Source: Haliotis asinina | Lineage: Eukaryota; Mollusca; Gastropoda; Lepetellida; Haliotidae | Assembly (NCBI RefSeq): GCF_037392515.1 | Contig: NC_090280.1 | Location: 18,478,001 to 18,542,000, forward strand | DNA length: 64,000 nucleotides | Direction: 5' to 3' | Shown here: positions 61 to 29,782 of the stretch, piece after piece | Layout of the letters: each line of letters begins with the position of its first letter | Numbering within the stretch: the stretch's first letter is position 1 | Translations under genes and position numbers: made by a program | Notes under the pieces: generated by a model | Seen by the model: only the letters and a program-made list of their open reading frames with translations | What the model was told of the DNA's origin: nothing | Databases searched by the model: none

Positions 61-239
61 TCCCAACATGTCTTGCTTCAAAACGAACACTTATTAACGT
101 GTCGTTTTAAGTCGCGAATGCTGACATAGATAGTTATAAATACACCAGAGGAGATAAGAGGACGCATCACACCCTCGGATGTTTCATTGTGATATCATCA
201 CATCTGATCCATGTGATGATACATTGATGTTCTTTTCAG

Positions 240-690
240 TTACAATGTTCTGTGTACAGGGTTCTCTGTTTAGCATTCACTGTTCATTTTGTTTATTGTT
301 CGGTGTTCGGTGTTCACTGTGTTCAACGCGGAGTGTTCACTGTTCGGTGTTCAATGTTCAATGTCTGTGTTCACTTTTCAGTCACAGTGATCCGTTTTGA
401 ATGATCGGTGATGGGTGTTTTCTGTTCAGTACTCAACGTTCGATGTTCATCGTTCAGTGTTTACTGTTATATTCAGCATTCAATATTAAGTTTAGAAATC
501 ACTGTTCGGTGTTCACTGTTCAGTGTCCATGTTCACTTTTCATTTACAGTTTTTCACGTTGAGTGATCGGTGGTCGGTGGTCGGTGGTTACTGTTCAGTA
601 ATCACTGTTCACTGTTCACTGTTCAGTAACAGTTTTAAGTGATCAGTGATCAGTGACGTTTGTTCACTGTTCAATATTCATAGAATGGTG
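240..690. repeat. degenerate GTTCA/CAGTGTTCACT short-period repeat
   Basis: About 450 bp are dominated by variants of TGTTCACTGTTCAGTGTTCA. This is an imperfect minisatellite with a 6-12 bp unit. It recurs at about 24190-24690 with small expansions and contractions, as expected for a repeat carried along by the 24-kb duplication. Open reading frames across it arise from the repeat and are not genes. Confidence 0.8.
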
Positions 691-1719
691 TTGAGTTGAA
701 GAGTATGTTTACAGAGTGAAATCTTCATACAGGGTATTGAAGACACAAATAAAGGCAGGGTTAGATTCATTCGAATATAATTTGGTAATGTATTGTAAAG
801 ACAACTTTATACGTCTTTGTGCAACGTAGAGACTGTCAACAGGTGAAGTTCTGGAAGACTCAAGACAAAGTCTTTGACCTTGGTGATGGAGAGAATCAAG
901 AAGTTTAAGGTTGCTTTTGCAGGCTCCATCATAAACGATGAAGCCATAATCAAGTTTTCAACGGACCAGCGATCGGTATAGGTCTAGGAGGGTAGCTTGA
1001 TCCCCTCCCCACTTGAGCCGGAAACAACTTTCAACAAATCGAGTGCTTTCAGGCGTTTGGCTTTACGAGACTTGATATGCGGCAAAAAAGTTTAATGGGA
1101 ATCGCAAACTAGGCCCACGAACTTGGCCTCCTTTACAACTTTAATGGGAGTGCCATTTAATGATCGTTCTGGGTCCTTATGGGGCCTATATTTTCTACAG
1201 AAATGTATACAATTCGATTTGGATTTAGAAAATTTAAAGCCGTTTTCAAGACACCATTTATTTATTTTGTTCTATATAAGTTTTGATCTATATAAGTGAA
1301 GGAGGGTAGCTTGATCACCTCCCCACTTCGAATTAGAAACGACCTTTAATAAATCCAGCGCCTTCAGGCATTTATTTTTAGGGACTTGATATGGGGGAGA
1401 AACGTTAAATGTGAGTCGAAAATCAGACCCAAGAACTTTGCCTCCTTAACAACTTTGATGGGAGTACTATTTAGAAACAATTCTGGATCTTTATGCGGTT
1501 TGTATTTCCTACAGAAATGTATACAATTGGTTTTCGTTTTAGAAAATTTAAAGCCGTTTTCTAGACACCATTTGTTAATTTTGTTGAAACATAACTGCAG
1601 TTGCCGTTCAATAGTATGCATATTTTTCCCGAGACAAGAAATATTAAAATCATCCACAAATAATGATCCATCAATTGAATCATTTAAAACCTTAGATAAG
1701 CATGGAATCCGAGAAGGGA

Positions 1720-2050
1720 CATTGTCGCGTTGTCGCATTGTCGCGTTGTCGCCCTCTCAAAACCAAGCAAAATGAGGCAAAAATTAACCAAAGCGCGACA
1801 ATGCGACAACGCGACATTTCGCCTATTTGTCGCATTGTCGCGATGTCGCGTGTCGCGTTTCGAATAACATTTTCTCTGTTCCTCCAAAGTACGACACGCG
1901 ACATAGCGACACTTTTCAAGGTCAAAATATGTCGCGTTGTCGCATTGTCGCCCTATCTACGATGTGTAAAAAAACCTAAACATTTACTAAAACGCGACAT
2001 GCGACAATGCGACATATTGAAATGTCGCATTGTCGCGTTGTCGCCCTTTC
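1720..2050. repeat. left subterminal GTCGC-rich array of the palindromic element
   Basis: Clusters of GTCGCGTTGTCGCATTGTCG and its reverse complement alternate with unique spacers of 40-60 bp. They are rich in CpG in an otherwise AT-rich neighbourhood. The arrangement mirrors that at 5435-5760. Subterminal repeats of this kind often bind transposase; that role is inferred. Confidence 0.8.
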
Positions 2051-2769
2051 CGATTAACGATGCGCATGCGTAGAAAGTAAATTATAGTACGCATGCGCAG
2101 GAAAAGTTAAACTACAGTTAAACTACAGTTTTACACTTCAATGGTCCTTTTGCTACTTCCAATGTTTTTTTAAAATGCAGTAGTGGTTGAAATGGCAGTT
2201 GGACCGCTTTTCTTGAACTTAATGCAAATCTTCATTGTTGGTTTGAAAATTATTTTATATATAAATGTATTTAGTGATTGAAGTGTGTTTTAGGAGCAAG
2301 ACAAATATTTGATACTTTTCATTGTAATCAGGGCACACATTTGCCCTGTCATTCAAGGCGGGGCAATTTGCTGTGCAGATTAATGTCTCTTTGTCACACC
2401 AGATAGCTATTATCATAAGTTCGAATACCAGCACCATACACATTAATCACTTTGAACATTTCGGCGATATCCAGATGACAGGTTGTGAGAAACTGAAATA
2501 TTGTTAAAATTCTAGCCACATCGGCAGAAACATCAGGTCATGTCCTCGTGTTCCATAATGTGGCTCCTGACACAGTTTCATGGCACAGTCCTGTCCGACG
2601 CTGATGAATTTGTTCGAGATCTGCCTTTGTTCAACCAGCAGTGGATGGATACCAAGTAGAATGAGATATCACGTAACCACCCGACACCTCAAAGACAGTT
2701 TAGGTCGGCTTTGAACGTGATGATGGGAAAACGCCATACAAATGGACTGTTATCATTGTGATATACTAT

Positions 2770-3465
2770 CCCAAGAAATAAACGCATAGACGAGAAAACT
2801 GTTGAGAAAAGTTTCAAACGTGTATAACTCGTCCATAAATAGACTTTAGTGCATGAATTTTACATCAGTAATGAGTGCATGTGCTTTAGAAGAAGGTAAT
2901 GTCTATAAAACAAATAAATAATAAGCGAAGACGTTGATGACGACGCAGCACGACCCTGGCGTCGGGTTTTCTGGTTCTCAAACGAATCTCTTTCAGCCTG
3001 TTCCGTACAGTTTGACCTGACATCCTCTGAAGCCCAGGTGCCCTGGCCGTTGTGTTCTCACCCGTGGGAGTACCCGTGGGAGTAATGTCTATAAAACAAA
3101 TAAATAATAAGCGAAGACGTTGATGACGACGCAGCACGACCCTGACGTCGGGTTTTCTGGTTCTCAAACGAATCTCTTTCAGCCTGTTCCGTACAGTTTG
3201 ACCTGACATCCTCTGAAGCCCAGGTGCCCTGGCCGTTGTGCTCTCACCCGTGGGAGTACCATCACGCAACTGTAGTACCCGCATGTACCTGTTTGAGCTG
3301 CAGTGGCAACTCTAGGTCTGCCTGAAAGGGGGCGGTGATTTCTTATATCTGTTTGGCTGCAACGAGCTGCAAGTCATTATATCTTGCTCAGACTAACATT
3401 CAGACGCCTGGCAACAGAAGAGTTGTGAAAATACAAATCGTCTATGCGTTTCTTTTGGAGGAATG
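2770..3465 (-). mobile_element. Tc1/mariner relic with internal 186-bp duplication, nested in the left palindrome arm
   Basis: The block has no counterpart in the right arm. Near its ends are inverted copies of AAACGCATAGACGA (about 2783-2796 and 3438-3450), which resemble Tc1-type termini. Inside, two tandem copies of a 186-bp segment (2901 and 3087) encode, on the minus strand, a helix-turn-helix-like stretch with MSGQTVRNRLKE and RLRTRKPDVR, as in the N-terminus of Tc1-like transposases. There is no catalytic domain, so it is a deleted relic. Confidence 0.6.
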
Positions 3466-3527
3466 GTTTATTAGAAACGATGAAATAGCTTGGTATCGTT
3501 GCGTACCCTTGAAGTGCCAGAAACCAA

Positions 3528-3715
3528 CTCTCCCTCCCTCACTCCTCCTACTCTGCGAAGCTCCACTCCATTCCACACCACACCTCTCCTCGCCCCTCCT
3601 TCTCCTTCACTCCTCCGGCGCTCCGTTCTACTCCACTCCACCCTAGCGCACTCCTCTCCGCTTCGCTCCACACCACTCCTCACTCCTCCACCGCTGCACT
3701 CACTCAAGGTTTGGG
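3528..3715. repeat. CT-rich strand-asymmetric tract
   Basis: About 190 bp are nearly pure pyrimidine with occasional A (CTCCACTCC-like units). The matching part of the right arm (about 4620-4680, as its complement) is only about 60 bp, so the tract expanded in one arm after the palindrome formed. The peptides it spells on either strand are low complexity and not genes. Confidence 0.75.
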
Positions 3716-5434
3716 AAGCTTCGTAAATTAGCCAGGTATTTCAATACAATAATGTGTTGTCATGTCTGTTTTAGTTCTATTTGAATCCTGTCTTATTAAC
3801 CCTGCACATGAGATAATTCACAATATATCTCATACTTTTCTCATATGGATACTTGATCAAGTGATACTTATGTACTACTTTCAAACATGCACCTACTGAA
3901 TCATAATATTCTTCAGCAAAATGGACAGTTTGAATGCGCCATTAACCACGCACCCTTAACCCACACACTACACGGCAACATGGATGTTCATTTATCATTG
4001 TTCTGAGTTCGAATCACGGGTATCTCAGCTCTTAAAAAGCATATAAAAATGATCATGCTTGTGATAGTTTTTGGATTCCGCCGTAACTAATAAAACGCGA
4101 CACGCGACAATGCGACAAAGCATTTAGTCATTAGTAAATATCTTATAATACATACTGTGGTCAATATTTTAACCAAACGCGACGCGCGGTAATGCGTGAA
4201 TACATTTCATCAAAATTTCATTAGTTACGGCGGAATGTAAAAAAAAAACTATGACAAGCATGATTATTTTTCGATATTTTTAAAGAGTTCAGATAGCCAG
4301 GGATCGACATCAGAACAATGATAAATGAACGTACATCTAGTCGTAAAGTCCATAGTGGTTGAGTGTCGTTGCTTAACGGAATGGTTCTATTCAGACTGAC
4401 CCTTTTGCTGAATTTTTTTTGATACAGCAGCCGTAGGTTTGAAACGATACAGGTACATTTGTACATGTGTATCGCTGGATCTAGTATCCGTATGAAAAAA
4501 TTATGAGGCATATTGTGAATCGGGTTATGTGCAGGATAAATAATATAGGATTCAAACGGAAATGAAAACGGGCATCACAATACATCATTGTAATGAAACA
4601 CCGTGCTATTTATACCAATAAACCTTGGGTGAGTGGAGTGGAGCGGCGAGAAGAGTGAGAGGAGTGAGGGAGGGAAAGCTGGTTCCTGGCACTACAAGTG
4701 TACGCAACTCTACCAAGTGATGTCATTGTTTCTAATATCTTACTGCTAACAGTCCATTCGTAAGGCTTTTTCCCACTATGACGTTCAAAGTCGACCTAAA
4801 CTGTCATTGAGGTGACGGATGGTTAAGTGATATCTCATTCTACTTGGTATCCATCCACTGCTGGCTGAACAGAGGCAGATCTCAGACAAATTCATCAGCG
4901 TCGGACAGGACTGTACCACGAAACTGTCAGGAGCCACATTATGGGACATAGTGACCCATTCGAGGACATCACCTGATGAATTTGCCGATGTGGCTTGAAT
5001 TTTAACAATATTTTAGTTTTTCACAACCTGTAATCACAACCTGTCATGGAAATGTCCAAAGTGATTAATGTGTATGGTGCTGGTATTCGAACGTATGATA
5101 ATAACTATCTGGTGTGACTAAGAGACTAACTCTGCTCAGCAAACTGCCCCGCCTTGAATGACAGGGGTACAGTGCGCCGTGATTACAATGAATAGTTGCG
5201 CTACTAATTCGATTTGCTGCAAGAACACACTTGACTGGCTAAATCCATTTGCAATATGTAAAACAATAAAGAAAGATTTGCATTAAGTTCAAGAAGAGAA
5301 GGCCCATTGCCATTTCGAGCACTACTTCATTTTAAAAACCATTGGAGGTAAGGAAGACCAGTGAAGTCTGGAATAGAGTATAACATTTTCAGCGCATGCG
5401 TAGATTAATTCACTTTCTACACATGCGCACCGGT

Positions 5435-5760
5435 AACAAAAAGGGCGACAACGCGACAATGCGACATACATTTTGTCGCATTGTCGCGTGTCGCGTTTTA
5501 GTGAATTCTTACATATCTTAGATAGGGCGACAATGCGACAACGCGACATATTTTGACCTTGAAAAGTGTCGCTATGTCGCGTGTCGCACTTTGGAGGAAC
5601 AGAGAAAATGTTATTCGAAACGCGACACGCGACATCGCGACAATGCGACAACTAGACGAAATGTCGCGTTGTCGCATTGTCGCGCTTTGGTTAATTTTTG
5701 CCTCATTTTGCTTGGTTTTGAGAGGGCGACAACGCGACAATGCGACAACGCGACAATGTC
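5435..5760. repeat. right subterminal GTCGC-rich array of the palindromic element
   Basis: This is the mirror image of the left array: clusters of GCGACAATGCGACAACGCGA with the same unique spacers in reverse order, including the spacer with the CTTGAAAAGTGTCGC junction. Pairing the two arrays would give a hairpin stem hundreds of base pairs long. Confidence 0.8.
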
Positions 5761-5776
5761 CCTTCTCGGATTCCAT

Positions 5777-7585
5777 AGATAAGCTATTGATCTTAATGCT
5801 AAACAATGTGACAGACAAAATACTACCTTGGGGGACACCCTGATCCTGATTGTAATGATCAGACAGGGTTGAATTTACTCGGACTTGAAGTCTTCTATCT
5901 TTTAGGAACTGTGAGATAAAAAGAGGTAAACGACCTCTCAAAACAAAATCATGCAAATCCTTTGAAATACCATGCTTCGAGGTCGTATCATGAGCCTTTT
6001 CAAGATCAAAGAAAATTGATACAGCGTGTTCTTTATTAACTATGGCACTTTTGACAAAGGATTCTAATCGTACCAAATGATCAATGGCACTACGATTTTT
6101 CCTGAAACCACATTGATTGTTTGTTACAAGGTTATTGGTTTCAAGATACCAAGTCAATCTATTATTCACCATACGTTCCATGGTTTTGCGGACACAGTTA
6201 GTTAGAGATATCGGTCTGTAATTCGACGGATCTGTATGATCCCTGCCAGGTTTTGATATCAGGACTACAATGACATTACGCCATGAAGGTGGAAGTTCTC
6301 CAGACGTCCATATTTGGTCAAATATATCTAAAAGTGTCATCAGACATGGTTCAGATAAATGTTTCAGTAGCTGGTAATGGGTCACCAGTTGCAGTGTCAT
6401 GAGCTTGCTTAAGGGCAGTTTGTAGCTCATGTAATGAAAACACTTCATTGTAATCTTCACCATTATTTGAGTCGAAATTAACTTTTGTCTTTTTCTTCTG
6501 TTTCTGATATTTCTGACACTCAGGGACATAATTTGCCGATGATGAATTCTTTGAACCATGTTCCAGACCTAGCCCATTGGTGTGCGTGAATTAATTTGGA
6601 GACAGTTTCTCCAAGGTTGTCGTTTGTTTTGTTTAAAGGTACGACGTGCCTTTGCATTCAATATTTTGAATTTGTTTAAGTTGTGGACAGTTGGGTGATA
6701 TCGGAAATATTTTTCTGCCCTTTTCCTCGCTTTCCTGGCTTGTCTACAATCTGTATTAAACCATGGTATCCGTACATGTGGAGTTGTAGAGGATTTTGCT
6801 ATACACGCATCAGCAATTTCATTTAAAACGTCAGAAAAACACTTAACAGAATCAGTTATATCGCTGAAACATTCAGGTCTTAGTTTAAAAGTCGGTAAAG
6901 TTTGAAACAAGGACCAGTCTGCCTTAGAAAAGTTCCATCTTGTATATGATGGAGAGCCATATGGATTAATTTCTGATAAAATAGTTGGAAAGTGGTCACT
7001 TCCGCAGAGGTCATTGTGGACTGACCAATCAAATTCATTAAGTAGATTAGAGTCTGCAAGCGACAAATCTAGAGAAGAGTGAATGACAGTTGCAGGATGC
7101 AGATAAGTGCTTGAATCGTCATTAGATATACACAAGTCATTATTGGATATAAAATCTCCCAATATTTTACCTTTAGTGTTAGTGTTTGCACCGAACCAGA
7201 TCGAGTTATGGCCATTGAGATCAACCATTATGATACAGGATTTAGGGAGTTGGTCATAGAGAGCTTGAAGATCAGACAGCTGGAGTGTCAAAGAAGGCGG
7301 AATATACAAAGAGCACAGTGTAAAGGTAACGTGAAGAGTTAGTCTCACAGCAACAACTTGGACATTAGTTGTGAGTGTTAGAGGACTGTGGATAACGTCC
7401 TGCTTTACAAGGATTGAAGGTGAAAAAGAATGATAAGCCAAGAACTGACGTAAATTAAAAGTATCTATCTGCTTCAGATAGGTTTCCTGCAGGCAGAAAC
7501 CTGATGGAGCAAAATCTTGGACTAATAACTGTAACTCATTAAAATTGGTCCGTAATCCTCTACAATTCCACTATATTATATTTTT
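5777..7585 (-). pseudogene. LINE 1 ORF2 remnant: endonuclease and reverse transcriptase
   Basis: Read on the minus strand from about 7585. The endonuclease shows VDLNGHNSIWFG (the GDLNGHNP motif with a changed first residue), a DLSLADS motif and GSDHFPTIL. The linker has WFNTDCRQARKARKRAEK. RT motifs follow: PSNYRPISLTNCV, QCGFRKNRSAIDHLVRL, FFDLEKAHDT and QGVPQGSILSVTLF. The order EN-linker-RT is that of LINE ORF2. Frames are broken near 6560 and elsewhere. The catalytic FVDD box and the C-terminus lie across the palindrome, in 717-1701. This is a dead copy. Confidence 0.85.
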
Positions 7586-8741
7586 GGAATGGACTATCTT
7601 TTAGGCAGAATAATTGGGGATCTATCCCGTCCCATTTTAGAGGGCGACAGTTATGTGCCCTGGAATGGGAGTGTTCGGACACGTCCATATCCTCAAGTGA
7701 ACCATATTTATTATATAGCTGAACTTGATTTTCTGATCCCTTTGATACTCTGCTACTTTGAAGTTTTTTAGTTGAATCTGACCTTGGTTTCGGCTTGCTT
7801 TTAATGGCCTGTTGAACATTTGTTGATTGTTGATTGAGATGGTGATTTGTCCTGTGGTATGAACGTTTCACCTTGAGACTCAGATTGGATTTGGGATGAA
7901 ATAACAACTGTTGTTTGAGTGGATTGTTCTGGGGAAAATCTCTCGGGAGTATCAGTTTTCACCCATGTCGAATCTGTTTGACAGGTGATTGACGTAGTTG
8001 GGACTTCGGCCTGTTTAAAACAAAAGGTTGTATCAGATAGCGTTCTGGAGACTGATGCGCACGTTTCGGTCTGTCCTTGGGTTTGTAGGAGTCTTTTAGC
8101 TTCTGCATAACTGATGTTTTTACTGAATTTAATCGTATTAATCTCCATCTGCTGTTTCCACATCGGGCAGTCCTTAGAGGAAGATGAGTGTGTTCCAAAG
8201 CAGTTGGCGCACTTTTTTAAAATTGCTGTCACAGTCTTCTGTTACATGTGTCTTCTCACTGCAGTGAGCGCATGTAAAAGACAATGTGCAGGTGTTCATA
8301 CCGTGGCCAAACTTCTGACATTTGAAACATCTGAGAGGGTTAGGAATGTATGTATCAACCCTGATATTGCAGTATCCTGCCTTAAGTGACTGAGGTGCAG
8401 ATATGTGTTTGTCTGGTGGATGTCTGATGGATGGTGATAAACCGTTTTACAAGGGTAACTCCTTGATCTTTCATTTTTGTGACTATATCCAGTTCTGTCA
8501 TGTCAGCGAACAATCGATCCTGATCTCGTACAATACCTTTGCTGGTGTTAAGAGTTCGGTGCGCAGAAACTGAAACGGGTACACCTACAAACGATTGAAG
8601 GGAAAGGAGGTTTGATGCTTGCTGTCGTTTGCTACATTCGACTAACAAAGCACCGGAACGTAAGCGTCTAATGTTTTTCACGTCCCCTACAATGCCCTGA
8701 ATTCCTTTAGAAACTGCAAACGGATTTAATTTCAGAGGCAT
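7560..8741 (-). pseudogene. LINE 1 ORF1 remnant: zinc-knuckle RNA-binding protein
   Basis: Minus-strand reading starts with LNPFAVSKGIQGIVGDVKNI, which equals the N-terminal region of LINE 3 ORF1, and ends in the linker with YNKYGSLEDMDVSEHSH, also shared with LINE 3. Between them are fragments of the cysteine-rich knuckle region (CANCFGTHSSSSKDCP) and the serine/glutamine-rich tail. At least two frame breaks separate the pieces. LINE ORF1 proteins of this type bind the element's RNA. Confidence 0.8.
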
Positions 8742-9479
8742 TTTATCAATAGCCTCAATGACTATAAACCATGGCCACTAATCGATAGACTGTGAAGTGC
8801 GCTGTTCATCATCATTGTCGAGTGGACGTTTATTTATTTATTTTTTTAGGGAGTATCGTAAGCCATATTGAATTTTTATTGTTTCATCATCCGAGCTCCC
8901 CACCCACCACGAAGTATCACAAGGACAATGCTAAAAACAAGCGAATCTCCAGTTTGCAGCATCAAGGATACCCGGATGATTTACTAAAGTAGAAAAATCA
9001 ATAGATTAATGATTCCACCAGACAGGCCTATGAGCCACTGCCCTCTGGCACACAACTCTGGGCAAAACCGTTATTGAATAATGTATTGAAATTCAGAGTC
9101 CAAAAAATTCGCCAAGACTTTAAAACATATCATATGATAATTCTCAGAATTTGGTGCAACAGTGTATTAATGTAGAACAGGGCTTGTCGTGACCAGCCGA
9201 TTGATCGAATCGGGCCTATTCAACCACCCGTCTAGGTGAAGTTAGGGCCAAAGTGGTGTGTTGGGCAACAGGATCACCTAGTCCTTGTTCCAGTACCCTC
9301 AACCACCATGATTCCCTCCTCCACCGCCAACTGGTTGCCCAATTTGGTCGCCTCTTACGACCAGCAATGGGGTGCTGTGGACACATTCAGCCTCGAGTCC
9401 ACACGGGAGAAGAGCACTTAGCGTTACCCAGCACCCACCACGAGCAGGCGGTTCTTCGCCGATGCCATGTTTACTGAGT

Positions 9480-9925
9480 AGAATGTAAGTAGAGATTATG
9501 GTAAAACATAAATCAGACCTACTATTATTACATAACTGACACGACAGGACAGGAGTTTCAGAAATAGCTGTCTGAAATGTATTTATCTGTGAGATGGGTT
9601 TAGTTTATTACATAATGTGTATGTTTTCTACATTATAAAAGAACGGATAAATATTGTATCTCGTTGTTTAAGGACATCTCAGTAACGTTAACGTCCAGGA
9701 AGGTGCTACTTTGTGTTAATGTAAACAAACATAGTGTCGTGCTTCTCCTTTGGCAACATATTAAAAAATCATATGTTGAAAGAGTTCTACAGTCGAACTT
9801 GTTGCACTGATAGAGAAAATATAATTCAATATATCAATTCAATTGTTTGTTCAGCATGTGTGGCCTCCGGTCTGTAGACAGATGATACTGCTGCAGGTTG
9901 GACGTTGTATGTTACAACCGTGGTT
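9480..9925. other. flank of LINE 1, no gene seen
   Basis: AT-rich sequence that repeats at 36533-37190 after LINE 2, confirming that the flank was duplicated with the LINE. The second copy contains an extra block of about 110 bp (36625-36740) with a FReD-type 3' end that is missing here. I see no coding signal. Confidence 0.6.
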
Positions 9926-9929
9926 GTAT

Positions 9930-11850
9930 GAGACTTAGGGCGTAGTAAACATGATGTTGTAGCTTGATAATAACTTTGTGTTTATACGTTTATATCATAG
10001 GATATGTAGGTAAACGGTATCGTTTGAGATCATACACTGGACATCCTAACATGAAGTTCACCTTCAATAATGGCCAACTTACACACTTTCCACAGTTGTG
10101 ATCCATTTATTACATTACAATATCACTCTTATACAGATGATATAACCAGCAGGTTGAGATTTGCAGTTTACAACATTTGACATCTCAGACGTAGTGCATA
10201 GTGAACATAAAGTTGTAGCTTTATAACAACGTTTGTATCACTAGATGCCATTAAGTTAATAAAACTAGATTTTATACTCTTCAAAAACGTAGGGAATAAT
10301 GAACAACTACGTTTGTAAGGAAATGGTGATGCACTCTCAAAACGTTCAATAATACCATGTGAACATTGATTGACTCCGAAAAATCTCCTAAAAATTTTTA
10401 ATCGTAAATTATAAAAAATGAAGATCCCCTACCTTTTTGACGAGTATATATTATAGAATGTACAGACCAACGATAGGTATTTAGTTATTTAGCTTTCATA
10501 AGCTGGACACATCATAACAAAATGGAATTCATCTTCAATCCTGGCACTTTTTACACAGTCGCAGTGTTCTCATTACGTTATGATATCGCCCACGTTCAAC
10601 TCGTAGTCTAGCCATGCCAATACGCACTTTCGTCAAGTCGCGACGATATAAGGAACAGTCACCACGTGTTAAATACACTTCCGGTTGTAAGTTCAGTATG
10701 GAAGAAGCATAAGAGTCATACTGCTACTACACTGCAAACAAGATTTCCATTCCTGATTTAAAATTTCAGTAACACGTCGCTTAAACTCTGACAAATATAC
10801 TTCAAGACTGCCAACAAACTGAAACACCCAGTCGTACCGTAACTAAATAAAACTTGCCTAACTGATGAAGCCCATGTATGACGATCGACCTTATCCAGTG
10901 AATACATCATTTCATATGCTTTACGTGGATACCCATGACTAGGCATACGGGTAACTCTCAGCCAGAATTTGACACATCTTAATAGAGAAGACACAAAACT
11001 GGGAATCTGCCCCATTCGTCCATAACTAGAACATTTGGAGCCCTTGTACTAATGTTAAGAAACCGTTTGATAGTACTGTAGACGTTGAAAGCTCCACAAC
11101 TCGGATCTGTATAACAGTGGCATGACTTGGGAGTCAAATAATGTAAAGTAAACCTTGTAGGTAAACTGCCAATAGGAATAAATCGTTGTTAAAACTTCAA
11201 ACAAGGCTTTCTTGACCTTCATAGCAGGGGAACTGCAGTTCTGTGCAAAACGTATTTGACTTGTAAGAACTAAGCCCAAATAATTGTAGCTAGAAACTAC
11301 ATCCATATTAATCAGACTGTAGGTCGACTTTTCCACACATGATGTTTTTTCACTCTTCCTGAAAACCATTATTTTAATTTGAAACATACTAAGAGTCAAA
11401 GCCCATGATTCACAGTACCTTTGGAGACCATCAAGACGTTTCTGTGGACAATTTACGCTATCTGCAGCATGTAGACATGAAGAGAAGCAATTACAAGGAA
11501 ATGATCAGAAACATGGAAAGAGGGTGAATCATAAACATGTGAAGTGATGACCGACTGTCCTAGGTGTTCGGGAGGAAATGTGTAATCAGTTTTGTAGGAT
11601 TGTGTGTTTCTCCTGTTTCAGTGTTATCATCATGTTATCATTTGTCCCACTTCTTTGCCGCCGTAACAGGAAGGTATCATATTCTGCTCAGAGAGATACT
11701 GTTGAAGTAAGCGTGACCTGTGCGAGGTTTGATAATTGATAATGTCGGTGTTGAAATGTCGCCACACAAGATATTGTGGCTAGTTTCAGAGAGTTCATCA
11801 ACAACGTCAGATGTTTCATTTAACCGGTTTTGATAGGCAGACAGTGCTAT
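9930..11850 (-). mobile_element. second LINE family (CR1/L2/RTE-like), rearranged copy B1
   Basis: On the minus strand, 11399-11055 encodes an RT thumb-like stretch (KIMVFRKSEKTSC and SSYNYLGLVLTSQIRFAQ), and 11015-10758 encodes the following C-terminal part (RVTRMPSHGYPRKAYEMMYS). The distal C-terminal region is present twice (about 9930-10160 and 10430-10700). From 11465 to about 11850 the sequence jumps to the endonuclease-side end seen at 19610-20060, so the central RT is deleted. The copy at 37190-38860 is its duplicate. Clade assignment is uncertain. Confidence 0.65.
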
Positions 11851-11854
11851 TGGT

Positions 11855-12005
11855 GGTCAGCCTGGCTGGGTTGATTGAGACAGTTGCGCAGATCGATGCT
11901 TATGTTGATCATGTGATTGTCCAGACTCGATTATTTACTGACCACCTCCGTAACTAAACTAAACTCACTCACTCATCCAAACCCACTCACTCATTCACAC
12001 ATTCA
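11855..12005 (+). mobile_element. gastropod tRNA-style SINE, 5'-truncated, CTCACTCACTC tail
   Basis: The stretch with GACAGTTGCGCAGATCGATG, a TGATTGTCCAGACTCGATTA motif and a tail of CTCACTCACTCATCC is the conserved 3' half of a SINE family very common in gastropods. The tail is on the + strand. The same insertion stands at 20090-20220 before gene 2, so it predates the gene 1/gene 2 duplication. Confidence 0.7.
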
Positions 12006-12189
12006 GAGTGTACTTTCACAAACAAATGTGATGTACGGCTGTAGACACGAAGTCCCTATGTAATTATTGCGATACATAGGTTTAGCTGGTGACCTGACAA
12101 CTGAACGATCCACTTTGAAACCGGATCTATTTTGGTTTAAGTGTTGAATAATGATTATACAAGTGTTCAGCTCATGTTTATCAAGTGTA

Positions 12190-12502
12190 TTTAGATAAGT
12201 GGAAGACAAGTGTGTGCACCACGAGGAGATGGATACCAGAGAGGGCCGGGATTATGACTTACTTTAGTTACAGCAGAGGTCCACTTGTCCTGGCACTGTT
12301 TGTCAGTTCAATGTACAAGTACCTCTCGGTGTGTGATACAGCATATAAACACCACAAGTGTTGCCATTGTGTATATCATATTCCTGTTACAGATGCAGAG
12401 TGTTTTGATTGGCACTGAAGTTAGCCTTTAAATACATAGTACTCCACACTCAAGACCCATTCACTCGGATTCAGTCCGTACAACCAGCTATCAGAGAGAA
12501 GC
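12190..12502 (+). promoter_or_regulatory. conserved upstream region and TATA-like core of FReD gene 1
   Basis: A block around 12190-12340 (AGATAAGTGGAAGACAAGTG and, further on, TGTCAGTTCAATGTACAAGT) recurs before all five FReD genes. TTTAAATACA (12427-12436) followed by TAGTACTCC lies 76 nt before the ATG. A CATTCAGTCCGTAC-like box lies just before the start codon in every copy. The block is read in different frames in different genes, so its conservation is not that of a protein. Confidence 0.55.
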
Positions 12503-15266
12503 ATGGTGTTCCGACTATGTCTGTGTGTAGTGTTGCTGGTTGGTGGTGGATATGCCAACATATCCGGCGACTACTGTCAGGTTCTGGACAACTACGATAC
12601 TTTCAAGACATCCATGGATAACTTCCTGGCTTCCAGGGATGAAACCTGTGGAAACACGGACAGGCGCAGTGGTGAGTACATCGTAGTGTAGAAAGTTACG
12701 GCACCAGTGACTTTACAGCTTTGTTAGTATTCTGAGAGCTCTATATCTATGCTTTTCAACCAGTGGTAGAAGCTGTTCCAGATACACACACCTCCCAAAT
12801 GTCTTTGTACACTGGACAGTAAGACATAGGAAAGCGGCACATTCCTCGCGCATTGTTTTTGAAACTTTAAATACATTTTTGTACAGATTTGTTTGTATTC
12901 TGACAGCTCTATATCTATGCTTTTCAACCAGTGGTGAAAGCTGTTCCAGATACACACACCTCCCAAATGTCTTTGTACACTGGACGGTAAGACATAGGAA
13001 AGCGGCACATTCCTCGCTCCTTGTTTTTGAAACTTTAAATACATTTTTGTACAGATTTGTTAGTATTCTGAGAGCTTTATATCTTTGCTTTTCAACCAGT
13101 GGTGAAGGTTTTTCCAAATACACGCACCTCCAAAATGCCTTAGTACACTGGATAGTAAGACATAGAAAAGCAGCACATTCCTCGCTCCGTGTTAAGGAGC
13201 GTCATATGATGTCATAGCTCTGACCATGTTACATTGTTATATGCCTCAATAAAATGTTATTCAGCTTTCTCCTTTTATCAAACTTAACATTCACTTTTCA
13301 CCTCGATATCTTTTGATTTAATCGTATTGGTAGAAGTATTGCTAGAATAATAAATAGTTGCGAATTTTGCGTTGATCAAGAGGCAAGTTAAGAATTATTA
13401 ATTCCAGCAACAACATTCACTGTTCCAAGTGGTTGATATACGCCGAGACTGCAAGAGACATTATGTAAATGAGGAAATATGGAAATAAGCCCAAATACGC
13501 TTCATATTGAACAGACTGTAAGAGCATGTTGGACGAGTTTCCCGAAGCTGATGACGGAGTTTACCGAATCAACCCGACAGATGGGAAGGGGTCATTTCTG
13601 GCCTACTGTGACATGACTGGCGGAGGATGGTTGGTAAGTTCCACACAATATCTGCAGCATGACAATTCTTCCTTCAAAGTGCAATGGTGATGTCAATGTG
13701 TCATATATCTCAATATTCGCACAATGAGACACTGATTTTCAATGAACAGGTATTTCAAAGGCGACTGGACGGGTCAGAAGATTTCTATCGAACCTGGTTT
13801 GAATACATGGACGGATTTGGAAACCTCACCCGAGAGTTTTGGCTTGGTTCGTACAAACATCAATTTCCCGTCAGAACCATATGTGCTTCGTACTTCCGTG
13901 ACATTGCACTCATTCCATCGTTTAAATGTTGAGTATATGCCCACAATTGATATAGTGAAGCATATGATAGTGTTCGTCTATCTTTGTTGTAAGTCTGTGA
14001 TAACTTGGTGTCTGATATATTGTAAGTCATAATTGGTTTTATCTGTCTGTATCTAGTATACAAAGAAACTGTTGTTATCGAGGTTTAAGACAAATATGCA
14101 CAGCTTTTATATATGAGGTCGAAGAGATAGAATAGGGCTTCTTGAAAACGGATTTCGAAAAAGAAAGTCGTGATAAATATTTTATTGATATTTAAGCCAA
14201 AATTATTACCATACAATTATGCATTTGCGACTTCATTGTGTGTTTGGGTGTGAACAGAGAGATCCTTCTGGTCGTCAGGATGTACACAACGGCTGGATTT
14301 CCGACATGGAACAACTGATGAAACTCAGGGTCTCCACTGTGGTTTTTCAGTAATACTGCACAGTATCTTGCTTTACTGATTGACTCGCCTCCTTGACCCG
14401 GGGTGTCACTATAACCCATGATTTAGTTTTCATTTCATACAGTGTGTGACTGGAATCTTCTCCAGAACTTCGTGATAACTAAAGATGTGGTCATATTTCA
14501 GGAAATGAGAAGATACACCGACTGACGAAGCAGAAAACCTATGAACTGAGAATTGACCTGGTGAACAAATCAGGAAGTCACTTCTTTGCTGAGTACAACA
14601 GTTTCCACCTGGGCAGCATGTCAGAGTTCTACACTCTGTTCATCGGGAAATATTCAGGAACAGCTGGTGAGTATGTTGTAAATATCAATTTGTGTTTGTT
14701 TCAGAATGCCATATATTCCTATTGTGTTGATTAAATCATTGTTCCTTCTACCTGGATGATTAGAATGAAGGAATGTAATACACTATTGTGAAGGTACACA
14801 TTTCTCCGTAAAGGAAGCTATGAAACCGTTAATCGTTATGTGAAACGGGAGATGACATGTGAGCATTTTGCTCAATTTCATAAGAAATCTGTTTGTACAC
14901 AGCTCTCTTTGACGCTGTGGTCAGACTATTCTGTGTTTGGCTCAGACGCATACAGTGTTGTCAAACAAGCCATGACTGAACGGTATGTTACAGTTCAGCA
15001 TGGAGTGTTCAAGTAATAGTCAGAAATATGCTGGTGTTTGTGTATTTTCAGGAGACAAGATGTTGTATCACAACAACACCAGATTCAGTGCAAAGAATTT
15101 GGATCTTGATGCACAATCCGGGAACTGTGCTGTGACACATAAAGGGGCGTGGTGGTTCAAATCGTGCTACAACTCACATCTGAATGGTCTGTACAGTGTG
15201 AGACCTCGATGGTTTGGTTTGTCAGGACTTAAGTTTTCCTCCATGAAGATTCGACCTCTCAACTAA
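12503..15266 (+). CDS. FReD gene 1: secreted fibrinogen-related protein, 254 aa
   Basis: Exons 12503-12671, 13515-13633, 13750-13846, 14502-14666 and 15052-15266 join to one 254-aa frame with GT-AG introns (phases 1,0,1,1). Residues 1-18 ([18 protein letters not shown]) are a signal peptide. A 38-residue linker holds Cys25 and Cys49. The fibrinogen C-terminal domain runs from about 57 to 254: DCKSM start, [36 protein letters not shown] split by intron 3, [10 protein letters not shown] calcium-site region, and GAWWFKSC ligand-pocket region. It is slightly shorter at the C-end than typical FReDs. There are sequons at NIS, NLT, NKS and NNT. There is no IgSF or collagen part. By family this is a lectin-like secreted recognition protein, perhaps immune; the ligand is unknown. 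Exon 1 is identical to that of gene 2. Confidence 0.92.
12720..13203. repeat. 168-bp tandem repeat, about 2.9 copies, in intron 1 of FReD gene 1
   Basis: Units start at 12720, 12888 and 13056, exactly 168 bp apart, each beginning TTTGTTAGTATTCTG or a close variant. Gene 2 has only one copy (about 20937-21085), so the array grew or shrank after the genes duplicated. Because 168 is a multiple of 3, long open frames run through it on both strands. The minus-strand peptide ([14 protein letters not shown]) recalls the C-terminal FG..LWNSLP region of LINE reverse transcriptases, so the unit may derive from a LINE. Confidence 0.85.
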
Positions 15267-15452
15267 ATGATGATTACTTGGTCACGTTGAGTATCACCAC
15301 CACAACAATAACACATTTTCATCACACTATCACAAGATGGACACTGACTCTTTTACATCAGACTACACTGAGATCAAACAACTACGTAAAAAATAAGAAT
15401 TATTGAATCAATATTTATTTATGGATGCAGGAGACATGTGGATACCAGTCTT

Positions 15453-20720: not shown

Positions 20721-23183
20721 ATGGTGTTCCGACTATGTCTGTGTGTAGTGTTGCTGGTTGGTGGTGGATATGCCAACATATCCGGCGACTACTGTCAGGT
20801 TCTGGACAACTACGATACTTTCAAGACATCCATGGATAACTTCCTGGCTTCCAGGGATGAAACCTGTGGAAACACGGACAGGCGCAGTGGTGAGTACATC
20901 GTAGTGTAGAAAGTTACGGCACCAGTGACATTACAGCGTAAACAGCTCTATATCTATGCTTTTCAACCAGTGGTAAAAGCTGTTCCAGATACACACACCT
21001 CCAAAATGTCTTTGTACACTGGACAGTAAGACAGGAAAGCAGCACATTCCTCGCTCCTTGTTTTCGAAACTTAAAATATATTTTCATTTCCAGTTTTCTA
21101 TCTGTTGGCGCACATACGTTTTGAGTAAACATTTTAACATGCCTCAGTAAAATGTTATTCAGCCTTTTCTTGTTATTAAACTTTACATTCGTTTTTCACC
21201 TCGATATTTACAGGGTTTTAAATTTAATCGCATTGAGAGAAGTATTGCTAAAATAATAAATGGTTGAGAATTTTGAGTTGATTCTGATTTTCAAAATGCA
21301 AGTTAAGAAGGAATGATTTCAGGAACAACATTCTCTGTTCCAAGTGGTTGATATACGCCGAGACTGCAAGAGACATTATGTAAATGAGGAAATATGGAAA
21401 TAAGCCCAAATACGCTTCATATTGAACAGACTGTAAGAGCATGTTGGACGAGTTTCCCGAAGCTGAGGACGGAGTTTACCGAATCAACCCGACAGATGGG
21501 AAGGGGTCATTTCTGGCCTACTGTGACATGACTGGCGGAGGGTGGTTGGTAAGTTCCAGACAATATCTGCAGCATGACAGTTCTTCCTTCATGTGTAATG
21601 GTAATGTCACTGTGTCATATATCTCAATATTCGCACAATGTGACACTGAATTTCCATGAACAGGTATTTCAAAGGCGACTGGACGGGTCAGAAGATTTCT
21701 ATCGAACCTGGTTTGAATACATGGACGGATTTGGAAACCTCACCCGAGAGTTTTGGCTTGGTTCGTACAAACATCAATTTCCCGTCAGAACCATGAATGC
21801 TTCGTACTTCCGTGACACTGTACTCATTCCATCGTTTAAATGTTGAGTATTTGACCACAATTGATATAGCCAAACATATGATAGTGTTCGTCTATCTTTG
21901 TTCTAGGTATGTGATAGCTTGGTGTCTGATATGTTGTATGTCATAATTATATATATGTGTCTGTGATTAGTATACAAAGAAATTGGCGTTATTGAGGTTT
22001 AAGACAAATATGTATCGATTTTATATATGAGGTCGAAGCGACAGAATAGGGCTTCTTGAAAACGAATTTCGTGAAAAGAAAGTCGTGATAAATATTTTAT
22101 TGATATTTAAGCGAAAAGTAAATCATTCCCGTAAAATTATGCATTTGCGTCTGGGTTGTGTGTTTGGGTGTGAACAGAGAGATCCTTCTGGTCGTCAGGT
22201 TGTACACAACGGCTTTGTTTCCGACATGGAAACACTAATGAAACTCAGGGTCTCCATTGTGTTTTTTTCTGTACGAATGCACAGTATCTTACTGTACTGG
22301 TCGCCTCCTTGACCCGGGGTGTCACTATTACCCATGATTGAGTTTTCATTTCACACAGTGTGTGACTGGAATCTTCTCCAGAACTTCGGGATAACGTAAG
22401 CTGAGGTCATATTTCAGGAAATGAGAAGATACACAGAGTGACGAAGCAGAAAACCTATGAACTGAGAATCGACCTGGTGAACAAATCAGGAAGTCACTTC
22501 TATGCCGAGTACAACAATTTCCACCTGGGCGGCATGTCAGAGTTCTACACTCTGTTCATCGGGAAATATTCAGGAACAACTGGTGAGTATGTTGGAAATA
22601 TTACTTTGTGTTTGTTTCAGAATGTCATATATTCTTATTGTGTTGATTAAATCATTGTTCCTTCTAAATGGATGATTAGAATACCGCGAATGAAGGAATG
22701 TAATAAATTATTGTCAAGGTTCACATTTCTCCGTAAAAGAAGCTATGAAACCGTAAATCATTATGTAGAACGGGAGAGGACATGTAAGCATGTCGCTCAA
22801 TTTTAGCATAAATCTGTTTGTACACAGCTCTCGATGATGCTGTGTTCATACTATTCTGTGTTTGGCTCAGACGCATACAGTGTTGTCAAACAAGCCATGC
22901 CTGAACCGTATGTTACAGTTCAGAATGGAGTGTTCAAGTAATAGTTAGGAATATGCTGGTGTTTTCAGGAGATCAGATGTTGTATCACAACAACACCAGA
23001 TTTACAGCAAATAATCTGGATCTGGATACAAACTCGAAGAACTGTGCTGTGACGTATAAAGGGGCTTGGTGGTTCAACTCGTGCTACAACTCACACCTGA
23101 ATGGACTGTACAGTAAGGGACCAAAATGGAGTGGTTTGTCAGGACTTAAGTCTTCCTCCATGAAGATTCGACCTCTCAACTAA
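20721..23183 (+). CDS. FReD gene 2: secreted fibrinogen-related protein, 254 aa
   Basis: Exons 20721-20889, 21430-21548, 21664-21760, 22418-22582 and 22969-23183, with GT-AG introns and the same phases as gene 1, give an open 254-aa frame. The signal peptide and linker (residues 1-56) are identical to gene 1. The FReD domain keeps the DCKSM start, [27 protein letters not shown] and FWLGNEKIHR. Exon 5 differs most: [20 protein letters not shown] replaces the gene 1 stretch. Other changes are RVTKQK for [14 protein letters not shown] for NSFHLGSM and SGTTG for SGTAG. It is a young tandem copy (8218 bp from gene 1), probably with the same secreted recognition role and a slightly different binding surface. 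Confidence 0.92.
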
Positions 23184-23239
23184 ATGATGATTACTTGGCC
23201 ACGTAGAGTATCACCACCACAGCAATAACACATTTTCAG

Positions 23240-25431: not shown

Positions 25432-28400
25432 TTAATGAGTACATCTTGTATTGCCAATACGACATCGCCGCATGATGACCTCTTCAAATCTGGACTGACA
25501 GTCCAAGTAGGTGTAACCAATATACGGTTTTATTTCATGTAATTTAATTATACCTACTTGGGTGTCCCACTTCTTCTGCATCAGATCACGGGTGTAAGTT
25601 CTAATGGTAGCTTTGTAATCAGAGTATGGAATAAGAAGTGGTGTCACAGATTTGTTGAGTGCTGCCTTGGCAGCAAGATCGGCCATTGTGTTACCAGAAA
25701 TGCCTACGTGGCTGGGTAACCAACAGAAGACGATGTCGCATTGGCCAGTAGCAAGATCGTTATACAGTTCAATAATTTCAGTTAAAAGTGGATGTTTACA
25801 AGACAAATTGTTAACAGCCTGAAGACAAGAAAGAGAGTCGGAATATATTATATATTGTTCATGTTTAGGAATATGTTTTAGAGCCGTTAATATTGCGTTT
25901 GCTTCTGCAGTAAAATTAGAGCTGTTATCTGGCATTCTAGAAAATGTTGTTCTGGATCCAGTGACAATGATGCGTCCCCGTCCATGGACCCATCTGTAAA
26001 TAAGGGTTTGTAATTGCTATATTTATCTTGTAGTTCATTATATTCTTGTTTATATTGTAAGTCATTTGTGTCTGATTTTATAAAATGCAGTTAATGTTAG
26101 GTCCACTTGGGGCCTAACCAACTGCCAAGGAGGAGGAGACGGGAGGGAGCTATGTTTTCCAGCTTAATACCAGCCGAAGAAAGAAAGGGTTTAATTCTGT
26201 GCCCTAGAGGTGGAACCAGAGAAGATTTCTTCTTGTATAAATCTTCATATAGGGTATTGAAGACACAAATAAAGGCAGGGTTAGATTCATTCGAATATAA
26301 TTTCGTAATGTATTGTAAAGACAAGTTTATATGTCGTTGTGTAACGTAGAGTCTGTCAACAGGTGAAGTTCTGGAAGTCTCAAGACAAAGTCTTAGACCT
26401 TGGTGATGGACAGAATCAAGAAGTTTTAGGTTGCTTTTGCAGGCTCCACCATAAACGATGAAGCCATAATCAAGTTTTCAACGGACCAGCGATGATATAG
26501 GTGTAGGAGGGTAGCTTGATCTCCTCCCCATTTTGAGCTGGAAACAACTTTCAACAAATCGAGTGCTTTCAGGCATTTAGCTTTACGGGACTTGATACGC
26601 GACACAAAAGTTAAATGTAAATCGAAAACTAGGTCCACGAATTTGTCCTCCTTTACAACTTTGATGGGAGTGCCATTTAAAGATAGTTCTTGGTCCTTAT
26701 GGGGCTTATATTTTCTACAGAAATGTATACATTTCGTTTTGGATTTAGAAAATTTAAAGCCGTTTTCAAGACACCATTTACTTATTTTGTTTAAACATAA
26801 CTGCAGTTGCCGTTCAGTAGTATGCATATTTTTCCCGCGACAAGAAATATTAGAATCATCCACAAATAATGATCCATCCATTGAATCATTTAAAACCCTA
26901 GATAAGCTATTGACCTTAATGCTAAACAATGTGACAGACAAAATACTACCTTGGGGGACACCCTGATCCTGATTGTAATGATCAGACAGGGTTGAATTTA
27001 CTCGGCCTTGAAATATTCTGTCTTTTAAGAACTGTGATATAAAAAGAGGTAAACGGCCTCTCAAACCAAAAGTATGGAAATCCTTTGAAATACCATGCTT
27101 CGAGGTCGTATCATAAGCTTTTTCAAGATCAAAGAAAATTGATACAGCATGTTGTTTATTAACTATGGCATTTTTTAAAAAAGGATTCTAAACGTACGAA
27201 ATGATCAATGGTACTACGGTTTTTCCTGAAACCACATTGAATATTTGTTGTAAGGTTATTGGTTTCAAGATACCAAGTCAATCTTTTATTCACCATACGT
27301 ACCATGGTTTTGCAGACACAGCTTGTTAGAGATATCGGTCTGTAATTCGACGGATCTGTATGATCCCTGCCAGGTTTTGGTATCGGGACTACAATGACAT
27401 TACGCCATGAAGGTGGAAATTCTCCAGACGTCCATATTTGGTCAAATATATCTAAAAGTGTCATTAGACACGGTTCAGGTAAATGTTTCAGTAGCTGGTA
27501 ATGGATATTATTATCACCAGTTGCAGTGTCATGAGCTTGCTTAAGGGCAGTTTGTAGCTCATGTAATGAAAAAACTTCATCGTAATCTTCACCATTATTT
27601 GAGTCGAAATTAACTTTTGTCTTTTCCTGCTGTTTCTGATATTTCTGAAACTCAGGGACATAATTTTTGCCTATGATGAATTCTTTGAAACATGTTCCAG
27701 ACCTTGCCCAATGGTGTGCGTGAATTAATTTTGGAGACAGTTCCTCCAAGGTTGACGTTTGTTTTGTTTAAAGGGACGATGTGCCTTTGCATTTGAATTT
27801 ATTTAAGTTGTGGACAGTTGGGTGACGGCGGAAATCATTTTTTTGCCCTTTTCCTCCATTTCCTGGCTTGTCTACAATCTGTATTAAACCATGGTATCCG
27901 TACATGTGGAGTTGTAGAGGATTTTGCTATACACGCATCAGCAATTTCATTTAAAACGTCAGAAAAACACTGAATAGGATCAGTTATATCACTGAAACAT
28001 TCGGGTCTTAGTTTAGAAGTGGATAAAGTTTGAAACAAGGGCCAGTCTGCCTTAGAAAAGTTCCATCTTGTATATGATGGAGAGCCTGATGGATTAATTT
28101 CTGATAAGATCGTTGGAAAGTGGTCACTTCCACAGAGGTCATTCTGGAGTGACCAATCAAATTCATTAAGTAGATTAGAGTCTGCAAACGACAAATCTAG
28201 AGAAGACTAAGTGCCAGTCGCATGATGCAGACAAGTGCTTGAATCGTCATTATATATACACAAGTCATTATTGGATAATAAATCTTCCAATATTTTACCT
28301 TTAGTGTTAGTGTTTGTACCGCCCCAGATCGGGTTATGGCCATTGAGATCACCCATTATGATACAGGATTTAGGAAGCTGGTCATAGAGAGCTTGAAGAT

Positions 28401-28722
28401 CAGACAGCTGGACTGTCGAAGTAGGCGGAATATACAAAGAGCACAGTGTAAAAGTAACGTGAAGAGTTAGTCTCACAGCAGCAGCTTGGAGATTAGTTCT
28501 GAGTATTAGAGGACTATGGATAACGTCCTGCTTTACAAGGACTGAAGGTGAAAAAGAATGATAAGCAATGAACTGACGTAAATTAAAAGTATCTATCTGC
28601 TTCAGATACGTTTCCTCCAGACAGAAAGTTGATGGAGCAAAATCTTGGACTAATACCTGTAACTCATTAAAATTGGCCCGTAATCCTCTACAAGTCCACT
28701 GTATACTTTTGGAATGGGCCAT
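25432..28722 (-). pseudogene. LINE 2 ORF2 remnant: endonuclease, reverse transcriptase, RNase H
   Basis: Minus-strand order: IQWTCRGLRANFNELQVLV start; LEETYLK; GDLNGHNPIWGG; GSDHFPTIL; PSNYRPISLTSCV; QCGFRKNRSTIDHFVRL; QGVPQGSILSVTLF; LFVDDSNIS (the catalytic DD of RT); then RNase H with [21 protein letters not shown] and [19 protein letters not shown]. Zinc-type C-terminal remnants end at about 25432. Frame changes occur near 28200, 27830, 27150, 27065 and 25935, giving at least five lesions. Confidence 0.85.
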
Positions 28723-28729
28723 CTCTCAG

Positions 28730-29782
28730 GCAGAATAATTGGGGATCTATCCCGTCCCATTTTAGAGGGCGACAAGCTATGTGCCCTGGCATGGGAGTGT
28801 TCGGACACGTCCATATCCTCAAGTGAACCATATTTATCATATAGCTTAACTTGATTTTCTGATCCCTTTGATACTCTGCTACTTTGAAGTTTCTTAGTTG
28901 AATCTGACCTTGGTTTTGGTTTGCTTTTAATGGTCTGTTGAACTTCTGCTGTTAATTGAGATGGTGATTTGTCCTGTGGTATGAATGTTTCACCTTGAGA
29001 CTCAGATTGGATTTGGGATGAAATAACAACTGTTTGAGTGGATTGTTCTGGGAAAAATCTCTCGGGAGTTTTAGTTTTCACCCATGTCCAATCTGTTTGA
29101 CAGGTTATTGTCTGTCCTAGGGTTTGTAGGGGTCTTTTAGCTTCTGCAAAACTGATGTTTGTACTGAATTTAATCTTAGTAATCTCCATCTGCTGTTTCC
29201 ACATCGGTCAGTCCTTAGAGGAAGATGAGTGTGTTCCAAAGCAGTTGGCGCACTTTTAAAAACTGCTGTCACAATCTTGCGCTCACTGCAGTGAGAAGAC
29301 ACATGTAACAGACAATGTGCAGGTGTTCATACCTTGGCCAAACATCTGACATTTGAAACATCTGAGAGGGTTAGGAATGTATGTATCAACCCTCATATTG
29401 CAGTATCCCGCCTTTACTGACTGATGTGCGGTTGGCAAGGAAAACGAAAACAGGTATGTGTTTGTCTGATGGATTTCTGAGTTTTTACGGGTGATAAACC
29501 TTTTTACAAAGGTAACTCCTTGATCTTTCATTTCTCTAACTATATCCATTTCTGCCATGTCAGCGTACAATCGATCCCGATCTCGTACAATACCTTTGCT
29601 GGTGTTAAGAGTTCGGTGCGCAGAAACTGAAACGGGTACATCTACAAACGATTCAAGGGAAAGGAGGTTGGATGCTCGACTAACAAAGCACCGGAACGTA
29701 AGCGTCTAATGTTTTTCACAACTCCTGCAATGCCCTGAATTCCTTTAGAAACTGCAAACGGATTTAATTGCAGAGGCATTTT
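28730..29782 (-). pseudogene. LINE 2 ORF1 remnant: zinc-knuckle protein
   Basis: Minus-strand pieces match LINE 3 ORF1: the N-terminal LNPFAVSKGIQGIAG region, LYADMAEMDIVREMKDQGVT, PNPLRCFKCQMFGQGMNTC (first CCHC knuckle with the His replaced by Gln), a broken second knuckle, and the tail with YDKYGSLEDMDVSEHSH. It is split over at least three frames. Confidence 0.8.

Follow-up and report, generated by a model that had tools for sequence, protein, structure and literature searches.

A foldback transposon family with IS3EU-like ends and 6-bp target-site duplications in the gastropod Haliotis asinina

A palindrome of about 4 kb in the genome of Haliotis asinina belongs to a non-autonomous foldback transposon family with hundreds of copies, which by its ends and its target-site duplication very probably belongs to the IS3EU superfamily. 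The palindrome lies in a stretch of 64,000 nucleotides (the window; assembly GCF_037392515.1, contig NC_090280.1, positions 18,478,001 to 18,542,000), and positions given without a locus or chromosome name are those of the window. The original prediction, made from the letters of the window, had described an element that is almost wholly one palindrome, with a perfect 8-bp target duplication, no transposase and no likeness to a named family. The family, however, duplicates 6 bp on insertion, not 8. Duplication length is best read from many copies, as the perfect 8-bp repeat at this one site pointed to the wrong superfamilies.

The junctions of 33 copies with both ends were tabulated on the basis of the tips T-ATGG and CCAT-A. 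The flanking six bases are identical in 28 of the 33 copies and agree at five or more positions in 30, compared with 26 of 1056 at five or more when ends of different copies were cross-paired as a control. The ends, TATGG..CCATA, are near-invariant, with the outer T present in 32 of 33 copies and the outer A likewise in 32 of 33; the family end sequence is TATGGAATCC. The table draws 14 copies from the window and 10-kb loci, eight from short copies, one from L029/L030, and ten from junctions only, the last taken from the 25 pairs read out of 27 that were matched by eye among the first 100 tips, the remaining two lying on C4. The six of 20 fetched loci without a tip pair (L013, L014, L017, L019, L020, and L022) are left out, as is L009, whose insertion is identical to that of the window. 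Rows L038 and L063/L064 have look-alike flanks, and the rows are perhaps not all independent.

An unoccupied paralogue of the insertion site within the window, holding a single AGATAAGC and no element, shows the insertion directly. The element entered as a unit, and AGATAAGC now flanks it on both sides. To that extent the predicted 8-bp duplication stands at this locus, but it is not a property of the element. All eight flanking bases agree in three of the 33 copies, the window copy and two that keep T..A tips, and chance extension of a 6-bp match (1 in 16) would yield about two such copies. The other 30 lack a full 8-bp match, an outcome that the original prediction had itself named as counting against it. 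The window copy has C in place of T at its left tip, and this base matches the C that follows GATAAG; with an A that by chance precedes GATAAG, this gives the apparent duplication AGATAAGC. The perfect 8-bp repeat is an accident of the window copy. The C at the left tip can also be held against this view, as the insertion at this single site may have been an 8-bp event. The window contains older duplications at 71–93% identity (5773-7991 with 26896-29110, 13231-15321 with 21129-23238, and others), one of which supplies the empty site.

Ends and duplication length agree with what is published for IS3EU. In its accessible part, PMC10045372 gives IS3EU elements TA..TA termini and target-site duplications of usually 6 bp, and that of PMC12730594 gives fungal IS3EU families ends of the form TAYGG..CCRTA, 6-bp duplications, and terminal inverted repeats longer than 30 bp. 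The family shares all of these: its 6-bp duplication, its TATGG..CCATA ends, which fall within the fungal motif, and a terminal inverted repeat that spans 271 bp at 98% in the window copy. It also has the long, internally repetitive inverted arms around a variable middle that mark a foldback element. Its junctions show neither the 8–10 bp duplications of TU, hAT, and Mutator foldbacks as a rule (8/8 in 3/33) nor the 7–8 bp duplications of the P superfamily, to which Galileo belongs.

The tips convey the size of the family. In the 1.14-Gb genome the 19-base tip occurs 360 times in forward and 357 times in reverse orientation at two or fewer mismatches, and the reversed control gave 0 + 0. Exact tips without the following A number ten. 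The first 299 bases of the element have at least 159 genome matches (40 of 771 candidates scored), and 14 of the 20 fetched loci had both tips inside the stretch. Fifteen complete copies fall into a class of about 4 kb, the window type, a class of 7–9 kb, and shortened forms; the smallest copy read (L034) is 59 bp long, and the largest reach 9 kb. Inverted arms are present in all 14 other copies compared, with the centre read in 12 of those. The original prediction had named copies without inverse arms and a chimeric assembly as grounds for its rejection; the former were not seen among these 14, and the latter is very unlikely given how often the structure recurs elsewhere.

Two local arrangements deserve mention. 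The region 195-12519 is duplicated about 55 kb upstream (C1:18423513-18434000), with matched pieces and flanks 98–99% identical, and the duplicate carries the window's insertion in a shortened form (L009), without some 2 kb of one arm that the window copy keeps. At L024 three tandem tips stand at one end (positions 216, 265, and 313 of that locus), and a piece of the duplicated target lies just before the second of them, which looks like a joint duplication of tip and target.

The arms of the window copy are not uniformly alike. The outermost 271 nt match in inverse orientation at 98%, far above the remaining arm parts; the match stretches on at 84% to 1702-2764 / 4735-5776, and a deeper match at 3724-4095 / 4216-4612 reaches 74%. 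The longest inverted word in the element is at least 60 bases, and 20 pair-shuffles gave 16 at most. The central word ATTCCGCCGTAACTAAT is located at 4075 and its inverse copy at 4220, as predicted. GTCGC or GCGAC words number 49, well above shuffled sequence (mean 5.1 and maximum 14 in 200 shuffles), which bears out the arrays of the original prediction; the outer zones hold 22 (left) and 23 (right), the centre holds four, and the parts between hold none. The bounds are 1702-5776 by the count of that prediction and 1701-5777 with the terminal bases of the family added (Table 1).

The description of the element as almost wholly one palindrome holds for the arms with one qualification: some 700 bp of the left arm are unpaired on the right. 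Where the right arm reads GATATTAG without interruption, the left arm reads GATA, an insert, and then TA and TTAG. Features of the insert are a subterminal inverted repeat (2771-2793 / 3438-3458, 20 of 23 columns matching) and an open frame with two HTH_Tnp_Tc3_2 stretches (34.4 bits against a cut-off of 31.5), the doubling being due to a tandem duplication, 2896-3074 / 3082-3260, of 179 bp at 98.9% identity. We take it for the decayed remains of a Tc1/mariner element that entered one arm before the foldback family spread, since the stretch recurs in 13 of the 14 copies compared with this one (L018 partially); only L009 is without it, and there the arm itself is lost.

Table 1. Features of the foldback element and its empty site in the window
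Feature	Positions	Strand	Basis or remark
Whole element	1701..5777	.	tip T of the family (C in this copy) at 1701, A at 5777; 33-copy junction table and empty site
Left target-site duplication GATAAG	1695..1700	+	empty site and junction table
Right target-site duplication GATAAG	5778..5783	+	empty site and junction table
Left outer arm with GTCGC arrays	1702..1972	+	98% complementary to right outer arm
Left arm, middle part	1973..2763	+	matched pieces 75–95% to right arm
Nested Tc1/mariner remnant, left arm only	2764..3468	-	TA on both sides; subterminal inverted repeat; right arm uninterrupted
Open frame with HTH_Tnp_Tc3_2 pieces	2889..3311	-	Pfam E 2.7e-8; doubled by 179-bp tandem duplication
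Left inner arm	3471..4091	+	inverse-arm comparison
Centre	4092..4219	.	remnant of ~120-bp GTCGC tandem unit; long relatives hold arrays and 2.7-kb core here
Right inner arm	4220..4734	-	inverse-arm comparison
Right arm, middle part	4735..5505	-	counterpart of left middle part
Right outer arm	5506..5776	-	pairs with left outer arm
Unoccupied paralogue of insertion site	26900..26907	+	single AGATAAGC, no element

The centre consists of a run of GTCGC-rich units of about 120 bp, of which the window copy holds one or less. In the long copy L027 on C1, 2.7 and 2.8 unit copies stand on the two sides, as inverted runs that enclose a core of about 2.7 kb. At about 100% identity, that core (2,681 bp) recurs twice on C6 and once on C2, and because cores on different chromosomes are this close to identical, the long form has evidently moved recently. 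Co-linear pieces of L027 and of L019 on C6, where the second tip was not seen, are 99.0–99.5% identical, with values of 96–98% confined to cross-matches inside the repeat arrays. The 4-kb class is more diverged (93–99% among nine sequences, two of them incomplete). Of seven long-core pieces scanned with Pfam, none had a match above the cut-off. DNA that is 75–93% like parts of the long-class core occurs at C14:37649225-37652495, C3:52575330-52577096, and C3:53150868-53152688, and could be the source of a captured segment or further copies.

The outer arms of a single element resemble each other slightly more than do opposite arms taken from different elements. On average, the two outer arms of one element agree at 0.931 (range 0.835–0.996, 14 elements) and opposite outer arms of different elements at 0.917, and 56 of 10000 permutations were as high as the own-arm value (13 elements). 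For this comparison L015 was dropped, its right arm being cut short, and L021, L024, and L028 were started from an inner tip. Private changes common to both arms of a single copy were also seen by eye in the alignment. This pattern suggests occasional arm-to-arm conversion of the outer arms. The effect is modest, and two points speak against a strong one: the small difference between 0.931 and 0.917, and the agreement between same-side arms of different elements, which is 0.935 for the left and 0.904 for the right.

The original prediction had noted that no transposase is present and that mobility must come from elsewhere, which the copies read support. Fifteen copies hold no open frame longer than 152 amino acids, and in Pfam scans of eight pieces of the window copy the nested Tc1 piece alone exceeded the cut-off, although short-exon genes could escape such scans. 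Genome searches with integrase profiles, limited to the best candidates scored (rve, 150 of 3003; IS481, 63 of 6983; IS3, 74 of 2756), were filled by other integrases and gave no IS3EU partner; many of the matches lie in open frames of more than 1000 amino acids, which we take to be retroelements. Coding copies could be missed beyond the first 100 of 717 tips, which were the ones listed. Three junctions (L036, L061/L062, and L063/L064) lack a good 6-bp match. These results weigh against the IS3EU assignment, whose label rests on ends and duplication length because no transposase was found in the copies read. We infer that the transposase partner of the family is an IS3EU element elsewhere.

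Several other loci came out of these searches. L048 (C13:45849000-45853800) holds a 338-amino-acid frame for an IS481-like integrase (Pfam rve), with a frame downstream that reads as OTU-like; a protein search gave two close relatives in the genome (93% and 57%) and four more at 35–38%. L048 may be an independent mobile element, although its ends were not found. Among the four weaker matches, L054 is presumably a KRBA2-like gene with introns. L051, L052, and L053 were set aside as virus-like, Polinton-type by a reading of their open frames. The tip word was absent at up to five mismatches from L048, L051, L052, L053, and L054. At L014 a 402-amino-acid open frame (positions 7612-8817 of that locus), a Tc1-type transposase by reading, lies outside the foldback copy.

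These observations can be placed in a provisional scheme. An integrase-like IS3EU transposase, made elsewhere, would bind the tips in trans, and the arrays of GTCGC octamers perhaps serve it as additional binding sites; the analogy is with Galileo, the arms of which contain several transposase binding sites (accessible parts of PMC3688188 and PMC4079207). The transposase would cut the element out and join it to staggered 6-bp cuts. Once in place, the long inverted arms might fold or pair, so that arm-to-arm conversion partly homogenises their outer 270 bp, and recombination would make the 120-bp units of the centre shrink and grow. Arms and units are also a likely source of the deletions that give short forms such as L009. 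In its full form the scheme has a foldback arising independently in an integrase-type (IS3EU) lineage. Arms and centre would then be made up of GTCGC octamers to which the transposase binds as a repeated array, each element would keep its own outer arms in concerted evolution, and the 7–8 kb copies that lack a transposase would have spread recently on a borrowed one. This full form is plausible, and we advance it tentatively.

Other origins have to be considered. A foldback from a superfamily with 8–10 bp duplications (sea-urchin TU-like, hAT, or Mutator) would have the overall anatomy of known foldbacks, which the family resembles, and would account for AGATAAGC around the window copy and once in the empty paralogue. 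With eight matching bases in three copies vs six in 28, and two of those three keeping T..A tips, this origin is refuted for the family as far as the 33 copies reach, and we regard it as highly improbable. We give virtually no credence to a palindrome that is not a transposon at all, whether made by chance, by assembly, or by inverted duplication of host DNA. The empty paralogue and the junction table already refute it, and the same structure stands at many places with duplications of its own; on its side are the location of the locus within a segmental duplication and a short copy (L036/L075) between inverted flanks of about 70 bp. This copy (C2:30358182-30358427) is 246 bp long and has no direct 6-bp duplication; the idea that L036 is a large host palindrome was dropped, as the inverted flank measures only about 70 bp.

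A different lineage with 6-bp duplications is harder to dismiss, but still unlikely. Dada elements make duplications of 6–7 bp, and a Dada-, Polinton-, or unknown-type transposase could move the element, its TATGG ends being convergent by chance. No transposase is seen that would argue otherwise, and L051 to L053 look Polinton-type by reading, with classes of open frame that recur among the integrase matches. Polinton/Maverick elements encode polymerase B, integrase, and capsid-type genes; the 15 copies hold no frame over 152 amino acids, and the scanned pieces gave no such Pfam match. Moreover, the five end bases and the duplication length equal the IS3EU rule exactly, as the accessible accounts state it. 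An IS3EU origin is thus the reading that we retain.

Seemingly the family is undescribed, and its architecture is apparently new within a known superfamily. Our literature search, which covered titles and the starts of abstracts of the papers listed, without most subscription journals and without Repbase, found no description of an IS3EU-type foldback, and none of the papers listed for gastropods deals with IS3EU. In the accessible part of an oyster-satellite paper that holds both terms, foldback occurs just in a reference title (PMC8268682). As far as these papers go, the statement that no named family is recognisable stands for the family, but its tips and duplication length fit the named superfamily IS3EU. 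Foldbacks are known from Mutator-type and P-type lineages; according to the accessible part of PMC4079207, the majority look Mutator-type, though not all, and separate lineages may each have evolved the form. If the assignment is true, the present family would add another independent origin of foldbacks. Some of its copies are very recent, its arms show signs of homogenising each other, and its satellite-like units can be traced from copy to copy.

TU of sea urchin and FB of Drosophila share the foldback architecture and repeat-rich outer domains of the present family, but the duplication of TU is 8 bp, compared with 6 here. Foldbacks of sea urchin and D. melanogaster are mentioned in the accessible part of PMC4079207, which also describes Tetris of Drosophila virilis; Tetris has long modular arms, internal tandem repeats, no conserved open reading frames, and no autonomous copy found, but differs in its 8–10 bp duplications, and Mutator is suggested by its authors. 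Galileo, a foldback-like element of the P superfamily in Drosophila, likewise has very long, internally repetitive arms, transposase-less copies, tandem repeats, and other transposons nested in its arms, but makes 7–8 bp duplications and has a P-type transposase, where the present family has 6 bp and TATGG tips (accessible part of PMC4168063). With IS3EU/GingerRoot the family has in common its duplication length, ends, and terminal inverted repeat of more than 30 bp; it differs in that the foldback copies read are without a transposase, and the accessible accounts of IS3EU do not mention kilobase inverted arms, GTCGC arrays, or central 120-bp units. A molluscan parallel for such units may lie in the Crassostrea satellites CgiSat35 and CgiSat47 (129 bp), which are labelled DNA/IS3EU in the accessible part of PMC8268682 and, likened here by label rather than by sequence, are also mollusc tandem repeats tied to IS3EU.

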